A stretch of 28,748 bases of DNA, taken from positions 1 to 28,748 of the IMG/VR virus record IMGVR_UViG_3300028557_000154. The stretch is one strand, 5' to 3'. The notes under the pieces are model-generated. The model saw only the letters and a list, made by a program, of their open reading frames with translations. It did not search any database and had not been told where the DNA came from. Of this stretch, positions 3,711 to 22,439 are shown piece by piece (the stretch's first letter is position 1; each line of letters opens with the position of its first letter). Origin of the DNA: a virus. A program made the translations under genes and the position numbers.

Positions 3711-4637
3711 ATGCTCACGTATAAAGACTTCGCGTATGAAGTAAAATCAGAGGAATTGAGTGAAGAAGCCGCTACTGGGTTGGCGGCAAAAGCAGCAAAG
3801 TCTGGCGTATCATTATCAGTACTAAAAAAGGTCTACAATCGCGGTATGGCTGCATGGAACTCTGGGCATCGACCTGGTACTACGCCACAGCAATGGGGTA
3901 TGGCTCGTGTCAACTCCTACATTACCAAAGGCAAAGGAACATACCACGGAGCCGATAAAGATTTACGAGAAGCCACTGCAAGGGATGCAGCATCTGGATT
4001 GCCGAAAAAATACGTAGCGGGCGTGTCAACTGCAACCGCAAAAGCTCGAGCTGCACATTTTAGAAAAGCCGACAAACTGTCTGACCGAGACCCAGCGGCT
4101 TATAAGCCTGCTCCTGGTGATGCAACAAGTAAAACTAAGGAATCAGTTCACACCAAGAAGGCTCGAAAGATGTTTGGTGAAGCAAAAGATTCCCGAGAGT
4201 ATGGCTATGAGGGTGAGATGGCAATGTCTCAACTTAAAGCCATTATGCAGCACGCAAAGAGACTACACGATCTTCTAGAACCAGACACCGATTTGCCTGA
4301 GTGGGTCCAATCAAAGATAACCCTTGCCTATGACTACATTCAAACTGCGGCGGATTATATGTCGACAGAGTTAGATGAAATTGCCGAAGCCACATACAAA
4401 GGCAAGACAGTTAAACTAAACAAGCCTATGGCAGGCGATGTTAAGAAGTCAAAGGTCTTTGTCGACCCAGACGGCGACGGCAAGGCACAGAAAGTTAACT
4501 TCGGTGACAAGAATCTGAGCATCAAAAAGCACATTCCGGATCGTAAGAAGTCATACTGCGCTCGCTCTAGTGGGCAGGGCAACCTCACGGATAAGACGTC
4601 GGCAAACTATTGGAGCCGTAAAGCTTGGGATTGCTAA
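3711..4637 (+). CDS. Multi-domain phage protein built from shuffled small domains
   Basis: 308-residue late-type protein. Residues about 25-75 carry the KSGVSLSVLKKVYNRGMAAW...RVNSY motif, a small domain seen in many phage and giant-virus proteins of unknown function; a related copy ends the protein at 10436. Residues about 98-145 have a KKYVAGVSTATAKARAAHF segment, another recurrent phage module. Residues about 165-225 form a helical unit (EMAMSQLKAIMQHAKRLHDL, EWVQSKITLAYDYIQTAADYM). The C-terminal 75 residues (KGKTVKLNKPM, KVNFGDKNLSIKK, then DRKKSYCARSSG and YWSRKAWDC) form a fourth module common in phage proteins. The role is unknown; a virion or head-assembly role is a guess. The ribosome site is GAGAGG. 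Confidence 0.8.
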   Translation: MLTYKDFAYEVKSEELSEEAATGLAAKAAKSGVSLSVLKKVYNRGMAAWNSGHRPGTTPQQWGMARVNSYITKGKGTYHGADKDLREATARDAASGLPKKYVAGVSTATAKARAAHFRKADKLSDRDPAAYKPAPGDATSKTKESVHTKKARKMFGEAKDSREYGYEGEMAMSQLKAIMQHAKRLHDLLEPDTDLPEWVQSKITLAYDYIQTAADYMSTELDEIAEATYKGKTVKLNKPMAGDVKKSKVFVDPDGDGKAQKVNFGDKNLSIKKHIPDRKKSYCARSSGQGNLTDKTSANYWSRKAWDC

Positions 4638-6564: not shown

Positions 6565-6963
6565 ATGTCGTGGAACAATGTAATCCCTGATGTTATTGTT
6601 CAGGGAATGCTCGAGAAGATTAGGAAAGAGCCGAAACAGTTACACTTTCATCTTGATCTGTTCCCACCTCTTTTCAGTATTGATAAAGAAGGTCTCACTG
6701 CCTGCAACGAAGCGTTCACGTGGATTGGGCCTGGCGGCGGCGGCAGATCTGGGACGATCTCGAAATCAGTCGATCACCCTGCATTTGCTGCCCTTCGAAA
6801 GCATCTCAGCAATAACGGTTTCATTAAAATGGAAACAGGTTGGTCGAATGGTGATGTTGTGACAAAACCGTTTTACCTCAACGAAGTGTATTTCAATGTT
6901 GGAGACCCGTTTGTTTGTGCTTCAGCAATGAATTATTACCTGATGATTAGAAAAAAGCCGTGA
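6565..6963 (+). CDS. Hypothetical protein
   Basis: 132-residue protein that I do not recognise. ATG 6565 follows AGGAAG at a good distance. It contains a glycine-rich loop (WIGPGGGGRSGT) and beta-forming stretches (FYLNEVYFNVGDPFVC), without an obvious nucleotide-binding signature because no GKS/GKT follows the loop. Its stop overlaps the GTG start of the next gene by four bases. Confidence 0.7.
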   Translation: MSWNNVIPDVIVQGMLEKIRKEPKQLHFHLDLFPPLFSIDKEGLTACNEAFTWIGPGGGGRSGTISKSVDHPAFAALRKHLSNNGFIKMETGWSNGDVVTKPFYLNEVYFNVGDPFVCASAMNYYLMIRKKP

Positions 6964-7271
6964 ATATATTTTACCTATCCAAAGATCCTGTGGAATCTGC
7001 ACAAATGATGCTGGACAAGCATGTTGTGAAAATGATTCTCGAAACCGCACAGCTCTTGTCTACCGCCCACAGAGTGCTAGATGGTACATTTGAAGCGCTC
7101 GATAATGGCAGCTGCCGAGTTACAGTTGACGGGATTCCTTATCTGGTGGACCACGATTCTGAAGGCTGGATGGTTTTGGAAGAAAACGGGCTTGGCTTTG
7201 GTATGCACAACACCAGTCTACTTGAAGCCATTAAGCCCATGGTGGGCAGGCGTCACCCGGGCCCTAGGTAG
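6960..7271 (+). CDS. Short member of the MNIF...DKHVVKMILETAQLL phage family
   Basis: 103-residue protein starting with GTG 6960, overlapping the upstream stop (GTGA). The N-terminus MNIFYLSKDPVESAQMMLDKHVVKMILETAQLLSTAHRVLDG (in pieces) matches a family I know from many phages, sometimes annotated near pyrimidine-dimer glycosylases. Usual members are longer and continue with an NHPS...W segment after the first 45 residues. Here that part is missing and replaced by a different segment (CRVTVDGIPYLVDHD) ending in GRRHPGPR. It may be a truncated or chimeric version. No frameshifted continuation was found before the late promoter at 7273. Confidence 0.7.
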   Translation: MNIFYLSKDPVESAQMMLDKHVVKMILETAQLLSTAHRVLDGTFEALDNGSCRVTVDGIPYLVDHDSEGWMVLEENGLGFGMHNTSLLEAIKPMVGRRHPGPR

Positions 7272-7272
7272 T

Positions 7273-7280
7273 TATAAATA
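7273..7280 (+). promoter_or_regulatory. T4-type late promoter TATAAATA
   Basis: Exact octamer 24 bases before ATG 7304, with GGGAGA (7292-7297) as ribosome site between them. It switches from the early-type region to the late block with the nuclease-like and ligase-like genes. Confidence 0.75.
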
Positions 7281-7303: not shown

Positions 7304-8221
7304 ATGGCTAGCAATCTTGGAGGGGCAGAACTTTATAAGCGTGACCAACGAGTAGCCATGTTTCTTGCTAAGTATGAGTCACAAGACAACTTTGAGCTAA
7401 TAAGTGGGCTCAAAGTTGTCTTTAGAGTAGACCAAGACATAGTAGCGGCGGTGAAACGAAAACAGTCTACTATTAATCTAAAGCTCATCACCACAGATGG
7501 CAAGACTTACAAGTTCAATCAATTAAAAAAGACTGCTGAGTTTGGTGGTAAGGGCGAAGGCTCTGGTACTATCAAGGAAGATAAAGAATTAAAATCTCTT
7601 AACGATCAACTAGATGCCGCAAAACTAAAAGCCATTTCTGCTACAATTCCTATCAAGGTAGGCATCAAAGTTTATCAGGTGGCTCAAGCTGTATCCACCC
7701 CGGGTACTCCAAAGTCTGACTTCCATTTGGTGGATGCCAATGGAAACGAAGTAGTATGGATTAGTCATAAAGACGGCTCGACTGCTAAGGACTTTCAACA
7801 ATGGGGCGGCATTTCACAGCGAGGCGAGCCCGATATAAACAAGCACAAAGAGACACGAGCTTTCATCCAGGAAATGAAGGATATGTTTCCAAAAGGAATC
7901 CCACGTGCTACTACCGTCTATAGAAAAATCACGGACCCAAAGCTTAAGATGCTTTCTGTCTATGGTAACAAATATGGCGGGCCGCTAGGGCGACAGAATG
8001 TGTCCATGTTGCTTCAGGGCCCGGTCAAGCTGATCAAGCAGGGAAGTATATATAAGTTAGACGCCAATCATGTTCACTATAATGGGCAATCGGTGGATGG
8101 AGATGGGTTCGACCCAGTCATTATGGCTACCTACAAAGGCGATAGAAATAATGAGGGCATTATAGGCGCTCGACTATCAATCTCCCCAGAAAAATCCCGA
8201 AAGGGCACGGAGCTTAAATGA
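7304..8221 (+). CDS. Putative PD-(D/E)XK-like nuclease, late gene
   Basis: 305-residue protein, first gene after a perfect late promoter, with GGGAGA as ribosome site. Residues 136-158 read TPKSDFHLVDANGNEVVWIS then HKDG. An Asp after a GTPKSD turn, a strand, and a WISHK strand resemble the D...(D/E/S)xK core of restriction-endonuclease folds (Asp139, Ser154-x-Lys156, with Ser in the acidic position). FQQWGG follows, as in phage relatives I recall with no assigned role. A helical segment (residues 93-115) precedes it. Its stop overlaps the next start (ATGA), tying it to the ligase-like gene. The fold assignment is a hypothesis; a virion protein is the main alternative. Confidence 0.6.
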   Translation: MASNLGGAELYKRDQRVAMFLAKYESQDNFELISGLKVVFRVDQDIVAAVKRKQSTINLKLITTDGKTYKFNQLKKTAEFGGKGEGSGTIKEDKELKSLNDQLDAAKLKAISATIPIKVGIKVYQVAQAVSTPGTPKSDFHLVDANGNEVVWISHKDGSTAKDFQQWGGISQRGEPDINKHKETRAFIQEMKDMFPKGIPRATTVYRKITDPKLKMLSVYGNKYGGPLGRQNVSMLLQGPVKLIKQGSIYKLDANHVHYNGQSVDGDGFDPVIMATYKGDRNNEGIIGARLSISPEKSRKGTELK

Positions 8222-9444
8222 CACCTTTCACTAAGTTTTTAGCCGAACAAAAGAACACTCATATGAATCACCTTGAGGATATGATTCTTCTTGGTGGTGT
8301 GAGTGGCGCTCGAGAGTCAATCAACTATCTTCAGGCCCTACGAAATATGCTTGCAGGGCACACGGGTACCCATATCAAAACTACACTTAAGTGGGATGGT
8401 GCTCCGGCAATTATCTGTGGTATTGACCCGACTGATGGTAACTTCTTTGTTGCCAAGAAGAGTGTTTTCAACAAGAATCCAAAAGTGTATAAGACACCGG
8501 CGGATGTTGAAGCTGATACCTCTGGAGACCTAGCGAAAAAACTTAAACTAGCGCTATTGCACTTTGCCAAACTTGGTATTGAGGGAGTAATTCAGGGAGA
8601 CTTGCTTTACACCTCCGATGATATCAAACACGAGACTATTGACGGCGAAGAATACATCACCTTCCAGCCTAACACAATTGTGTATGCCGTGCCTGCTAAG
8701 TCAACTCTAGCCAAGACCATCAGTGCATCAAAGATCGGTGTGGTTTGGCACACCACATACGAGGGCAAAACATTTGAGTCAATGTCAGCTTCGTTTGGTA
8801 AAGATATTTCAACCAAGCTCAATAAACTTTCCTCAGTTTGGCATCAAGATGCTACTTTCAAGGACGTGTCTGGTACTGCCACTTTGACTAAGGACGAAAC
8901 TGCCAAACTTACAAATCTACTTTCTCAGGCTGGCACGGCATTTAGAAACATCCCGCCCAGCACGATTAGTGATATTGCCAACGACGAAGAACTACGAATT
9001 AGAGTTATGACATATAATAATTCAAAGGTTCGAGCAGGTGAACTCATCACAAATCCAAGCGCACACACAACCGGGCTTATGCATTACATCTCTGACTACT
9101 ATCAGAAAGAAATGGATGCTAAGAAAACCGAAAAGGGAAAAGCTGTCTGGAAAGCTAAACAGGCCGAGGTCCTTAAGTATTTTGCCAGACACAGCCACAA
9201 GGATATCACTGGTATCTTTGTTCTGATGAACCTTCTTACTGAAGCCAAGGATATGATTATCAAGAAGATGGATTCGGCTTCATCAACTAGGCTATTTCTA
9301 CGGACCAAGGATGGCTTTAGAGTGACTGCACCAGAAGGGTATGTTGCGATTGACCACATGGGTTCTGCGGTAAAACTAGTGGATCGAATGGGCTTCAGTG
9401 CCGCTAACTTCTCCACCGACGTCATCAAAGGCTGGGAACGCTAA
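8218..9444 (+). CDS. Putative ligase-like covalent nucleotidyltransferase, late gene
   Basis: 408-residue protein. LKWDGAPAII (Lys58, Asp60, Gly61) fits motif I (KxDG) of ATP-dependent ligases and capping enzymes. GVIQGDLLYTSDD (about residue 125) resembles motif III with Asp for Glu. Near the C-terminus APEGYVAIDH resembles motif IV (EGxV) and GSAVKLVDRMGF resembles motif V. The spacing between III and IV is much longer than in T4 RNA or DNA ligases, with a helical insertion that includes a YYQKEMDAKKTEKGKAVWK stretch. If correct, Lys58 would be adenylylated. It overlaps the nuclease-like gene by four bases. I recall uncharacterised relatives in aquatic T4-like phages. Activity is inferred. 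Confidence 0.6.
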   Translation: MTPFTKFLAEQKNTHMNHLEDMILLGGVSGARESINYLQALRNMLAGHTGTHIKTTLKWDGAPAIICGIDPTDGNFFVAKKSVFNKNPKVYKTPADVEADTSGDLAKKLKLALLHFAKLGIEGVIQGDLLYTSDDIKHETIDGEEYITFQPNTIVYAVPAKSTLAKTISASKIGVVWHTTYEGKTFESMSASFGKDISTKLNKLSSVWHQDATFKDVSGTATLTKDETAKLTNLLSQAGTAFRNIPPSTISDIANDEELRIRVMTYNNSKVRAGELITNPSAHTTGLMHYISDYYQKEMDAKKTEKGKAVWKAKQAEVLKYFARHSHKDITGIFVLMNLLTEAKDMIIKKMDSASSTRLFLRTKDGFRVTAPEGYVAIDHMGSAVKLVDRMGFSAANFSTDVIKGWER

Positions 9445-9633: not shown

Positions 9634-10347
9634 ATGAATGAATATTCAAATTATTTGGTAAACAAACCTGCTACTATTGAAGGACTCGGCCCATGGGCTT
9701 GGCTAGCATCGGATAAGCAAGCCTGGCAAGGAATCACCTGGGACTGGATGAATAGCCATAAGGCGGCATACTTGGAACACGTGACCGATTGGTCAGTATG
9801 TATTCAGGCCGGTGGTTGCATGGGACTTTATGCCAGGCTTTTCTCTGATATGTTTGAGAGGGTATATACATTTGAGCCAGACCCGCTCAACTTTTTGTGT
9901 TTGACCATCAACTGCCAAAAAGACAACATCATAAAAATGCAAGCGGCTCTGGGGCATAAGAATCAACTAGTAGGAATTCGACCTCAGAATGGTACTAATT
10001 CTGGAATGCATATTATTGATGATCGCCAAAGTCTGGTTCCTATGCTGATGCTGGATCAACTAGAGCTAGATGCGTGTGGTCTAATTCAGCTTGATGTGGA
10101 ATTCTATGAATTGAATGTGCTAAGAGGTGCTCTGAAAACAATTGAAAAATTTAAGCCTGTCATTACATGTGAACTAGGCCGATTGTCTTGGTTTGATGAA
10201 CATGATCTTAGTGGACTGCAGCATAACTCGGACTTGATGCAAGATGACAATCTAGAAGCAGACATTCTTGCACTTTTAGCTCCCTATGGTTATAAAAAGG
10301 TCGGGCAATCTTGTGCCGATGCGATCTTTAAAGTAGTTGAAGTATAA
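9634..10347 (+). CDS. FkbM-family methyltransferase
   Basis: 237-residue AdoMet-dependent methyltransferase of the FkbM type. VCIQAGGCMGLYARLFSDMF (about residues 56-75) is the glycine-rich AdoMet loop, followed by the acidic strand VYTFEPDPLNF that usually binds the ribose. Later LIQLDVEFYELNVLRGALKTI matches the conserved LxKIDVEGxE...L.GA.. of the family, with F in place of the usual G after DVE. Phage copies are thought to modify glycans or small molecules; the substrate is unknown here. ATG 9634 has AAAAGGA about eight bases upstream. The glycosyltransferase at 23751 could belong to the same modification theme. Confidence 0.85.
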   Translation: MNEYSNYLVNKPATIEGLGPWAWLASDKQAWQGITWDWMNSHKAAYLEHVTDWSVCIQAGGCMGLYARLFSDMFERVYTFEPDPLNFLCLTINCQKDNIIKMQAALGHKNQLVGIRPQNGTNSGMHIIDDRQSLVPMLMLDQLELDACGLIQLDVEFYELNVLRGALKTIEKFKPVITCELGRLSWFDEHDLSGLQHNSDLMQDDNLEADILALLAPYGYKKVGQSCADAIFKVVEV

Positions 10348-10350
10348 ATA
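10343..10350 (+). promoter_or_regulatory. T4-type late promoter TATAAATA
   Basis: Exact octamer overlapping the stop codon of the methyltransferase gene. The next start is at 10436, so the transcript would carry a leader of about 80 bases containing two stem-loops. Confidence 0.7.
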
Positions 10351-10435: not shown

Positions 10436-11821
10436 ATGAAAAAAGAACAAGAAACTACCAAAGTCCAAGATGCCAAAGGTAAGGCAAAAGGCAAAACAGT
10501 ATCGGGTAAGCCAGCAAATTCGATTGACTTCTCTCCTACAACGAATGAACAGCTATCCGAACAATCGCGTGGGGCCGTGGTTTTTGCATTCGGCAGATTC
10601 AACCCACCCACCATCGGGCACGAAAAGCTTGTAAATAAAGTTAAAGAAGTAGCAAAGCGCACAGGCGCCACACCTGCGGTCTTTCTTTCTCATTCACAAG
10701 ATAAAAAAACTAATCCGCTATCATATCAAGACAAGTTCCGCTATGCTAAAACAGCATTCGGACCTGTAGTAGTATCTTCACCCGCAAAGCATGTTATGGA
10801 CATTCTTGGTTCACTACAGCACATTGCCAAAAATGTGACCATGGTTGTAGGGTCGGATCGGGTACAAGAATTTACAACTCTGCTTAACAAGTATATCAAA
10901 GACTATGATATCGACAGTATTAATGTTGTGTCAGCTGGTGAACGCGACCCGGACGCCGAAGGTGTTGCCGGTGTATCAGGCACTAAGCTAAGAGCATTTG
11001 CGGTTGCCGGCGACCTGGCTTCTTTCACTGGCGGTCTGCCAGATAAACTAAAACCAGAGGCTGCAAAGCTGTTAAAACAAGTGAGGTCCGCGTTGACTGA
11101 GGAAACAATCGACGAAGCACTATCAGTAGAGCAGCGCAGGAAGCGTGCCATGATTATGCGCCGACTAGAGCCGCGAATTGAAAGAGCCAGAGAAAGAGCT
11201 CAAAAGCGACTCGCTGATTCATCACACATTCGAGGGCGGGCTGCAAAGAAAGCTCGAAACATCATTCGTCAACGGCTTGCCGGTGGTAAGAAATACTCTG
11301 ACATGACTCCAGGTGAGAAAGTTCAGATTGACAAGCGCATGAAGTCCAGAGCCACCGCAATCGTTAAACTTACTAGCCGTCTGATTAATAAGACTCGACA
11401 GGCAGAGTATGAACGACTGAAATCATATATTCATGGGCATGCACTAGACGCAATGCACACAAGGGCAAAGTCTCCGGTGACAGAAGAACTAGATAACCGG
11501 TTCGAGAAGCACATGACATACAATGTGGTTGATTTGGATTCAATCGTTGAATCTATGGTTACGGCTGCTCTACCTGTGCTGATGACGGAAAAGGAACAAG
11601 GTTCCCTAAAGAATAAAAGTAATAAGTCAGGCTTTGAGTACTCTGTTCTAGAGCAAGTTTATATGCGTGGTATGCTAGATACTTGCGGCGACCGAAGTGC
11701 TGCATTTGATCGAGTCAACTCATTTATCGCAGGTGGCCGCACGGCAATGAACGAAGACCGTGATCTGTTTGAAACTGGAACGCTCTCCCTAGACGACATG
11801 TTTAATGAAAGATTTAGGTAA
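10436..11821 (+). CDS. Nucleotidylyltransferase fused to a basic C-terminal region
   Basis: 461-residue protein. Residues 46-225 are a cytidylyltransferase/NMN adenylyltransferase-type domain. VVFAFGRFNPPTIGHEKL has the (H/T)xGH signature (Thr59, Gly61, His62), and GVSGTKLR (about 179-186) matches the second ISGTxxR-type signature. Such enzymes transfer a nucleotide monophosphate to NMN, pantetheine phosphate or similar; the substrate is not readable here. Residues 225-360 are very basic and helical (RRLEPRIERARERAQKRL). Residues about 395-430 repeat the KSG-x-EYSVLEQVYMRGM...RVNSF motif of the gene at 3711. It is expressed from the late promoter at 10343. The stop overlaps the next ATG. A virion-associated enzyme is possible. 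Confidence 0.8.
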   Translation: MKKEQETTKVQDAKGKAKGKTVSGKPANSIDFSPTTNEQLSEQSRGAVVFAFGRFNPPTIGHEKLVNKVKEVAKRTGATPAVFLSHSQDKKTNPLSYQDKFRYAKTAFGPVVVSSPAKHVMDILGSLQHIAKNVTMVVGSDRVQEFTTLLNKYIKDYDIDSINVVSAGERDPDAEGVAGVSGTKLRAFAVAGDLASFTGGLPDKLKPEAAKLLKQVRSALTEETIDEALSVEQRRKRAMIMRRLEPRIERARERAQKRLADSSHIRGRAAKKARNIIRQRLAGGKKYSDMTPGEKVQIDKRMKSRATAIVKLTSRLINKTRQAEYERLKSYIHGHALDAMHTRAKSPVTEELDNRFEKHMTYNVVDLDSIVESMVTAALPVLMTEKEQGSLKNKSNKSGFEYSVLEQVYMRGMLDTCGDRSAAFDRVNSFIAGGRTAMNEDRDLFETGTLSLDDMFNERFR

Positions 11822-21741: not shown

Positions 21742-21749
21742 TATAAATA
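21742..21749 (+). promoter_or_regulatory. T4-type late promoter TATAAATA
   Basis: Exact octamer 40 bases before ATG 21790. It argues against the upstream GTG at 21724 as the start of that gene. Confidence 0.7.
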
Positions 21750-22004: not shown

Positions 22005-22439
22005 ATGTGGCTTTATGAAGGAACTGAGTTCACTGATCCAGAGTCGCATTACGGCTTCATATATCTAATCACCAACAATCTAACTGGGCGTAAATACATT
22101 GGGCGAAAATATTTTACTAAAGCCAAGACTCGACAAATAAAAGGCAAGAAGAAACGAAGCAGAGTTGATTCGGAATGGGTTTCTTATTGGGGCTCTTGCC
22201 AACCATTACTTGACGATATACTAACTCATGGGCAAGAAAACTTTACCAGAACTATACTAAGACTTTGTAAGACTAGAGGTGAAACAAATTATTGGGAAGC
22301 CAAGCTACAGTTTCAATACGAAGTTCTTGAAGGCGAGTCTGATTGGTACAATGCCAATATTATGATGAAGTTCACTAGGCGAAATATCGGAAACATCAAA
22401 TCGGAGACACAATGCGTTGACAAAGCTATTGGAACATAA
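22005..22439 (+). CDS. GIY-YIG-type nuclease, segE-like
   Basis: 144-residue protein of the GIY-YIG superfamily. YGFIYLITNNLTGRKYIGRK has the two signature strands (here GFIY and YIG) with Arg in the following RKYF. The end of the core has NYWEAKLQFQYEVL, where Glu is the expected catalytic acid, and DWYNANI resembles the conserved NxN region. It is close to the segE-like family of T4-like phages, whose members may be homing endonucleases or domesticated nucleases. The late promoter in front is unusual for a purely selfish gene. It overlaps the AdoMet decarboxylase start by 23 bases. Confidence 0.85.
   Translation: MWLYEGTEFTDPESHYGFIYLITNNLTGRKYIGRKYFTKAKTRQIKGKKKRSRVDSEWVSYWGSCQPLLDDILTHGQENFTRTILRLCKTRGETNYWEAKLQFQYEVLEGESDWYNANIMMKFTRRNIGNIKSETQCVDKAIGT

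Follow-up and report, generated by a model that had tools for sequence, protein, structure and literature searches.

Two overlapping genes of a T4-like virus, one nuclease-like and one ligase-like, raise the question of what such a pair does and in which cell it acts. The window, by which we mean the whole stretch of 28,748 nucleotides that was analysed (IMG/VR virus record IMGVR_UViG_3300028557_000154), is a T4-like replication region with a gp41-type helicase, a dCMP deaminase, a primase, NrdA, NrdB and PhoH. The module around the ligase-like gene has the same location in cyanophages, with gp41/MazG on one side and the primase on the other. The original prediction described the two products, here called P1 and P2, as a cut-and-seal pair made late in infection.

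Gene coupling and the late promoter

Both predicted open reading frames exist, and they overlap by four bases, the common ATGA, at 8218-8221.

7304-8221, + strand: P1, 305 aa, PD-(D/E)XK-like nuclease (predicted), phrog_13937
8218-9444, + strand: P2, 408 aa, DUF6267, predicted RNA/DNA-ligase-like covalent nucleotidyltransferase fold
7273-7280, + strand: TATAAATA, T4-type late promoter core, 23 bases 5' of the P1 ATG

The coupling recurs in relatives. Of the 40 non-identical loci that extend far enough downstream, 31 have P2 within 2.5 kb after P1, and in two more the genes are adjacent in another arrangement; P1 relatives are not accompanied by P2 everywhere. The perfect late promoter that had been claimed for the pair is indeed present at 7273. 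The window contains seven copies of TATAAATA, all on the coding strand, compared with 1.25 expected from shuffled sequences, and over all P2-bearing loci the coding strand carries 283 copies and the other strand 15. This strand bias indicates that the sequence acts like a real T4-type late promoter. In 23/64 non-identical regions, where ~1.1 would be expected, it is found no more than 150 nt upstream of the gene directly before P2 (hereafter the slot gene), and it also precedes slot families unrelated to each other. The conserved late promoter sequence thus predicts late expression of P1 and P2.

Just upstream of P1, a 103-aa ORF (6960-7271) is near-identical over its first 43 residues to proteins of 180-200 aa in the relatives (98% over 43 aa to L004, 4303-4896) and then diverges. 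This ORF looks truncated or recombined.

Conserved residues and predicted folds of P1 and P2

P2 matches Pfam PF19782 (DUF6267) over model positions 1-374 of 376 (E 1e-109, 367.9 bits, cut-off 27), as do 68/68 of its relatives. Relatives of P2 are present in 396 phage records, chiefly of cyanophages and also of a pelagiphage and Stenotrophomonas phage DLP_6. Among bacterial and archaeal genomes, the collections searched had P2 on nine contigs only, nearly all from metagenome bins; it therefore looks like a phage gene. Novelty was assessed by comparison with the Pfam, PHROG and PDB collections and with open-access papers. The statement that neither protein has an assigned function holds, in that P2 is a DUF and P1 an unnamed PHROG with no significant match in Pfam, and the open-access literature searched contained no paper naming DUF6267.

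8389-8400, + strand: P2 motif I, K58-W-D60-G61 (K58 and D60 in 68/68 sequences, G61 in 67/68)
8593-8601, + strand: P2 motif III-like Q126-G127-D128 (68/68)
9334-9387, + strand: P2 motif IV (E373-G374) to motif V (AVK386LVDR390), with E373, G374, K386 and R390 in 68/68
7718-7771, + strand: putative P1 active site D139...S154-H-K156, with D139, S154, H155 and K156 in 50/50
7304-7603, + strand: P1 N-terminal domain, residues 1-100, common to relatives with different C-terminal domains

The ligase motifs that had been pointed out in P2 (KWDG, QGDLLY, PEGYVAID and AVKLVDR) are all present in the ligase order I, III, IV and V, and their key residues are invariant. The AlphaFold model of P2, built from an alignment of 68 sequences, has a pLDDT of 89.1 and a pTM of 0.84. 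We re-aligned the 1000 best Foldseek chains to this model with VIA-align and listed 50 matches, of which 50/50 were RNA or DNA ligases, with Z scores of 6.3-8.9 over ~160-195 residues. The best among the matches listed was the Naegleria RNA ligase NgrRnl (Z 8.9, 184 residues), followed by TbREL1 (8.4), T4 Rnl1 and Rnl2 (7.7 each; the latter is the comparison that the original prediction had proposed) and human DNA ligase I (about 7), values to be read with the caution that a best Z of 7-8 often arises in VIA-align without kinship. With these RNA ligases, P2 shares a predicted nucleotidyltransferase core and the ordered KxDG, GD, EG and K motifs; it differs from them in the Asp of motif III, where Glu is usual, and in a helical insertion of ~130 residues (about 225-353) between motifs III and IV.

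What makes the ligase-like reading convincing is the combination of a list made up of ligases only with the invariant K58, D60, D128, E373, K386 and R390 in motif order. Since Foldseek itself gave no significant match for the P2 model (the ligase rows had E 0.58 or worse), the support for a nucleotidyltransferase fold is moderate. At the sequence level, no ligase family scored above its Pfam cut-off for P2, RNA_lig_T4_1 matched 1/68 family members (E 0.015), and PDB searches with the P2 family found no known ligase. An hhalign comparison of P2 with single T4 Rnl2, Rnl1 and DNA ligase sequences detected no homology, a weak test because each target was only one sequence. P2 is thus probably a ligase-like covalent nucleotidyltransferase with a moderate resemblance to known ligases, and it may join nucleic-acid ends, as the model would predict.

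A single-sequence scan of viral contigs with P1 found nothing, and a scan with a P1 alignment found relatives; relatives of the window type are present in 24 phage records. The Pfam family LOR, considered as an identity for P1, was sub-threshold (E 0.02) and was set aside, as was a sub-threshold Pyr_excise match upstream, and sequence searches of the PDB with P1 gave nothing solid towards known nucleases. P136, K137 and Q166 are as invariant as the putative active site (50/50 sequences). In the comparison with restriction nucleases, the AlphaFold model of P1 (pLDDT 93.7) best matched MspI (VIA-align Z 7.3 over 172 residues) and HinP1I (Z 6.7 over 168 residues); Foldseek found HinP1I with E 0.018 and a probability of 0.72, which is not significant, and further VIA-align rows at low Z were mostly nucleases of the PD-(D/E)XK fold.

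The PD-(D/E)XK pattern proposed for P1 is therefore borne out in its invariant D139, S154 and K156 and in its MspI/HinP1I-like fold, but not as the canonical motif, because Ser154 takes the place of the usual acid in 50/50 sequences. E183 (49/50) or E92 (47/50) might supply the missing acid. A non-standard active-site residue is also known from some type II enzymes (PMC4081073). P1 resembles HinP1I and MspI in its predicted core, over ~170 residues, and in the active-site D and K, whereas the Ser in the (D/E)xK position, an extra N-terminal domain and the lack of a methyltransferase partner set it apart. The first 80 residues of P1 fold into a small barrel that weakly resembles Hfq/Sm (Hfq rows at Z about 3 in VIA-align). 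We consider P1 a probable PD-(D/E)XK-like nuclease, though not a canonical member, with a moderate structural resemblance. Neither the folds nor the homologues spoke against the original prediction: the predicted folds fall within the two classes named, and K58, D60, D139 and K156 are retained.

A constant core behind a variable slot

In viral contigs, isolates and cyanophages, we found a recurrent order of slot gene, P2, NMNAT-like gene (CT) and DUF5824. The window carries the corresponding features as follows.

10436-11821, + strand: CT, HIGH-superfamily NMNAT-like adenylyltransferase ('cytidyltransferase'), 461 aa, Pfam CTP_transf_like above cut-off
10343-10350, + strand: second TATAAATA, before the NMNAT-like gene
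3711-4637, + strand: DUF5824 protein; relatives have this domain behind CT or fused to CT

CT lies downstream of P2 in most relatives and has the conserved motifs GRxNPPTxGH and SGTKLR. In locus L126, P2 and the NMNAT-like domain are fused in one protein. A second candidate fusion, in L057, was rejected as it lacks the NMNAT motifs and has only the C-terminal region of CT with DUF5824. Like the phage NMN adenylyltransferases of the NadM/NadR type, CT has a HIGH-superfamily domain with GRxNPPTxGH and S-x-T/S-K-x-R motifs; its partners, by fusion or linkage, are DUF6267 and DUF5824 in place of Nudix, a kinase or NadV. A phage NMNAT has been suggested to act on NAD+ (PMC9602691). The NMNAT-like adenylyltransferase is the third enzyme of the set. 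Between P2 and CT, the window also encodes an FkbM-type methyltransferase (9634-10347), which is found directly behind P2 in L001-L005 and is absent from most other relatives. A further ORF of the window (22005-22439) matches an 'NAD synthetase' PHROG and has weaker matches to homing endonuclease PHROGs; near it are copies of the late promoter at 21742 and 21971.

The gene before P2 is far less constant. In many P2 loci, it encodes a protein other than P1 with a D-x(n)-[E/S]xK stretch, for example GDIEALYNGKEFNIEIK in L018, PDLVMTIDKKTTQFEIK in L025, PDLTVQRGTKKAGVELK in L030, TDFTIGNNKISLK in HTVC008M and GDIFIKYNDGKMVGVSLK in ACG-2014b, and no significant Pfam match was found for any of these. 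Exchange is also seen within the P1 family, where the N-terminal domain is joined to at least five C-terminal types (iterated HMM). L092, L101, L103 and their relatives carry two slot genes in tandem. The motif D-x(n)-[SE]xK occurs in 16/21 slot families and in 96/335 other ORFs, an enrichment that is no statistical proof because the pattern was devised after the slot sequences had been seen and some matches are plainly not nucleases (an FAD-dependent thymidylate-synthase-like protein and a GIY-YIG protein). Judged by motif and position, the slot proteins other than P1 may nevertheless be nucleases as well. P2 is therefore best described as the constant partner and the P1-type nuclease as one of several apparently unrelated slot proteins. 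The cut-and-seal pair of the original prediction keeps its fold classes, its coupling and its late promoter, and it changes into a constant P2 with an exchangeable slot and an added NMNAT. In L101 (8292-8942) and also in L142, a GIY-YIG-like gene lies between the tandem slot genes, which are predicted nucleases, and P2.

The P2 N-terminus and the place of action

The first ten residues of P2 bear on where it would act.

8218-8247, + strand: predicted capsid-targeting sequence MTPFTKFLAE at the start of P2, with an (L/I)xE prohead-protease site after E10

P2 of the window starts with MTPFTKFLAE QK, and T4 ipII and ipIII start with MKTYQEFIAE A, which has the same pattern. For T4 IPIII, targeting to the prohead core depends on residues 4 and 7, processing involves residues 8 and 10, and gp21 makes its cut behind L/I-X-E (PMC9026906). 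The pattern M..[FY]..[FY][ILV].E heads 48/86 non-identical P2 relatives and 14/66 slot ORFs, compared with 5/48 CT and 27/684 other ORFs; as relatives are not independent, these raw counts overstate the significance, and the fairer test by family gave 9/25 slot families versus 7/124 others (Fisher p 1.4e-4). At internal Met residues, the pattern was found in 1/6758 cases. A test free of the regular expression, with the P2 relatives anchored on the conserved His15, showed F/Y at position 4 in 59% (background 8%) and at position 7 in 73%, I/L/V at position 8 in 80% (background 20%) and E at position 10 in 80% (6.6%), and the control positions 5, 6 and 9 had no such preference (2-5%). Residues 1-13 of the P2 model have a pLDDT under 50 and are disordered. 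The pattern also heads unrelated slot proteins and part of the P1 family; it is absent from P1 and CT of the window, and cyanophage P2 homologues often lack it. Stenotrophomonas phage DLP_6, in which P1, P2 and CT are all present, has a P2 with a similar start (MMKFTQFLAE). From these sequence comparisons, we predict that P2, alone among P1, P2 and CT of the window, carries a T4-type capsid-targeting N-terminus.

The T4 internal proteins IPI, IPII and IPIII are a close parallel, since they too are products of late genes with a ten-residue N-terminus that has the same key positions 4, 7, 8 and 10 and an L/I-x-E cleavage site, and very different mature proteins follow the one tag. A precedent for injection is IPI*, which enters the host to counter one of its restriction enzymes (PMC3012670), and the capsid-targeting tag has served to load foreign nucleases into T4 (PMC9026906). 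In contrast to the T4 internal proteins, P1, P2 and CT are far larger and enzyme-like, P1 and CT of the window have no tag, and packaging is only predicted for P2.

Virion proteomes of other phages provide a second line of evidence. The NMNAT-like CT was detected in virions of S-SCSM1 (ORF91), S-SZBM1 (_140) and S-CREM2 (ORF154) (PMC9602691, PMC9146016, PMC10665884), and PMC9602691 also cites S-CBWM1. The start of CT fits the tag loosely in S-SCSM1 (MKSFLQFLKE) and S-SZBM1 (MRFRQFIIE). S-SCSM1_90, the neighbour of CT, is annotated as 'virion protein' and belongs to a slot family by alignment and tblastn; it has no match to the tag, which indicates that the tag is not required for detection in virions. 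The P2 homologue of S-SZBM1 (SSZBM1_141) and its slot partner, both without the tag, are absent from the listed proteome, and the proteome papers contained no report of P2 in virions. The authors of these proteomes caution that such virion proteins may be contaminants or carry-over.

Taken together, the capsid-targeting N-terminus of P2 and the NMNAT in virion proteomes point to action in the next cell at the time of DNA entry. We give about an even chance to the reading that P1, as the nuclease, and P2, as the ligase-like member, belong to a payload that is made late, packed into the head and injected. Late transcription would yield P1, P2 and the NMNAT-like enzyme; the first ten residues of P2 would direct it to the prohead core, and the prohead protease would then cut them off behind E10. 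After injection into the next cell, DNA would be cut by P1; P2 would self-adenylylate on K58 and close or cap ends of nucleic acids, such as those at nicks in the incoming phage DNA, and the NMNAT would maintain NAD+ early in infection. P1 of the window, with no targeting sequence of its own, would ride with P2 if it is packaged at all. Here, the packaging of P2, the activities of P1 and P2 and the target of P1 are what we infer. That the nuclease is the exchangeable part is as expected for a component of attack or counter-defence. Of the functions that had been proposed (late genome processing, repair before packaging or defence against the host), the late timing is retained through the promoter, while the evidence points away from genome processing and pre-packaging repair and towards the next cell.

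Three other explanations are possible, which we rank in the order of repair in the same cell, RNA repair and exclusion by site-specific cutting. We regard it as rather unlikely that P1 and P2 stay out of the head and act where they are made, P1 trimming or resolving branches or damaged ends and P2 sealing nicks before packaging. This would agree with the late promoter before P1 and other slot genes, with the position among replication genes between the helicase gp41 and the primase gp61 (also in L083, L084 and L173) and with the missing tag on P1 and CT of the window and on many cyanophage P2 homologues. However, it leaves the tag on P2 and on unrelated slot families as well as the NMNAT in virions unexplained, and a diversified nuclease beside a constant ligase would be odd for housekeeping. 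T4 Rnl1 with Pnkp is the model for RNA repair after attack by host defence nucleases, and P2 could likewise be an RNA ligase that restores cut tRNA or rRNA, with P1 and CT as loosely associated counter-defence genes. In the structural comparison, RNA ligases (NgrRnl, TbREL1, T4 Rnl1 and Rnl2) rank above DNA ligases as neighbours of P2, by ~1-2 Z units only, differences too small to settle the substrate. Since the genes examined next to P2 included no kinase-phosphatase and the constant type of upstream partner resembles a DNA restriction nuclease, we hold RNA repair to be improbable.

The least probable of the three, in our view, is that P1-type nucleases cut DNA of competitors or the host at specific sites while the phage DNA is shielded by base modification or loss of sites. 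Site-specific type II enzymes are the closest folds of P1, and the slot is strongly diverse, as this explanation would have it, but the set is without a constant DNA methyltransferase and no 4-bp palindrome is specifically depleted in P1-bearing loci (CCGG 0.89 and GCGC 1.14, versus 0.76 and 0.96 in loci without P1). We favour the injected late payload because it accounts best for the tag, the promoter, the proteomes and the changing nuclease.

A wider reading, which we put forward tentatively and with less confidence than the payload itself, is that T4-like phages of marine and fresh waters carry a cut-and-seal cassette, packed into the head and injected, in which the ligase-like protein and the NMNAT are constant, the nuclease is interchangeable, and unrelated proteins share one ten-residue tag. 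If so, a logic like that of polymorphic toxins would apply to phage ejection proteins. DUF6267, so far without a function, acquires predictions of its enzyme class and its place of action, together with a set of constant partners. Should P2 prove to be packaged, one could tell from sequence alone, by the T4 capsid-targeting pattern, what marine T4-like phages inject, and the recurrence of NMNAT in cyanophage virion proteomes would be explained.

Two further protein groups were noticed near these genes. Lys/Glu-rich proteins that are annotated or reported as virion proteins are encoded beside CT in L172 (5609-6580 and 9313-11087) and L173 (8304-9677); they have no tag pattern and could be internal DNA-condensing head proteins. 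A family of ~200 aa with the capsid-targeting-like start MLGFKEYIAENVG is encoded just before or in the slot (L030, 3596-4207; L034, 3308-3919; L044, 846-1457; also L067/L070) and is a possible further payload protein.
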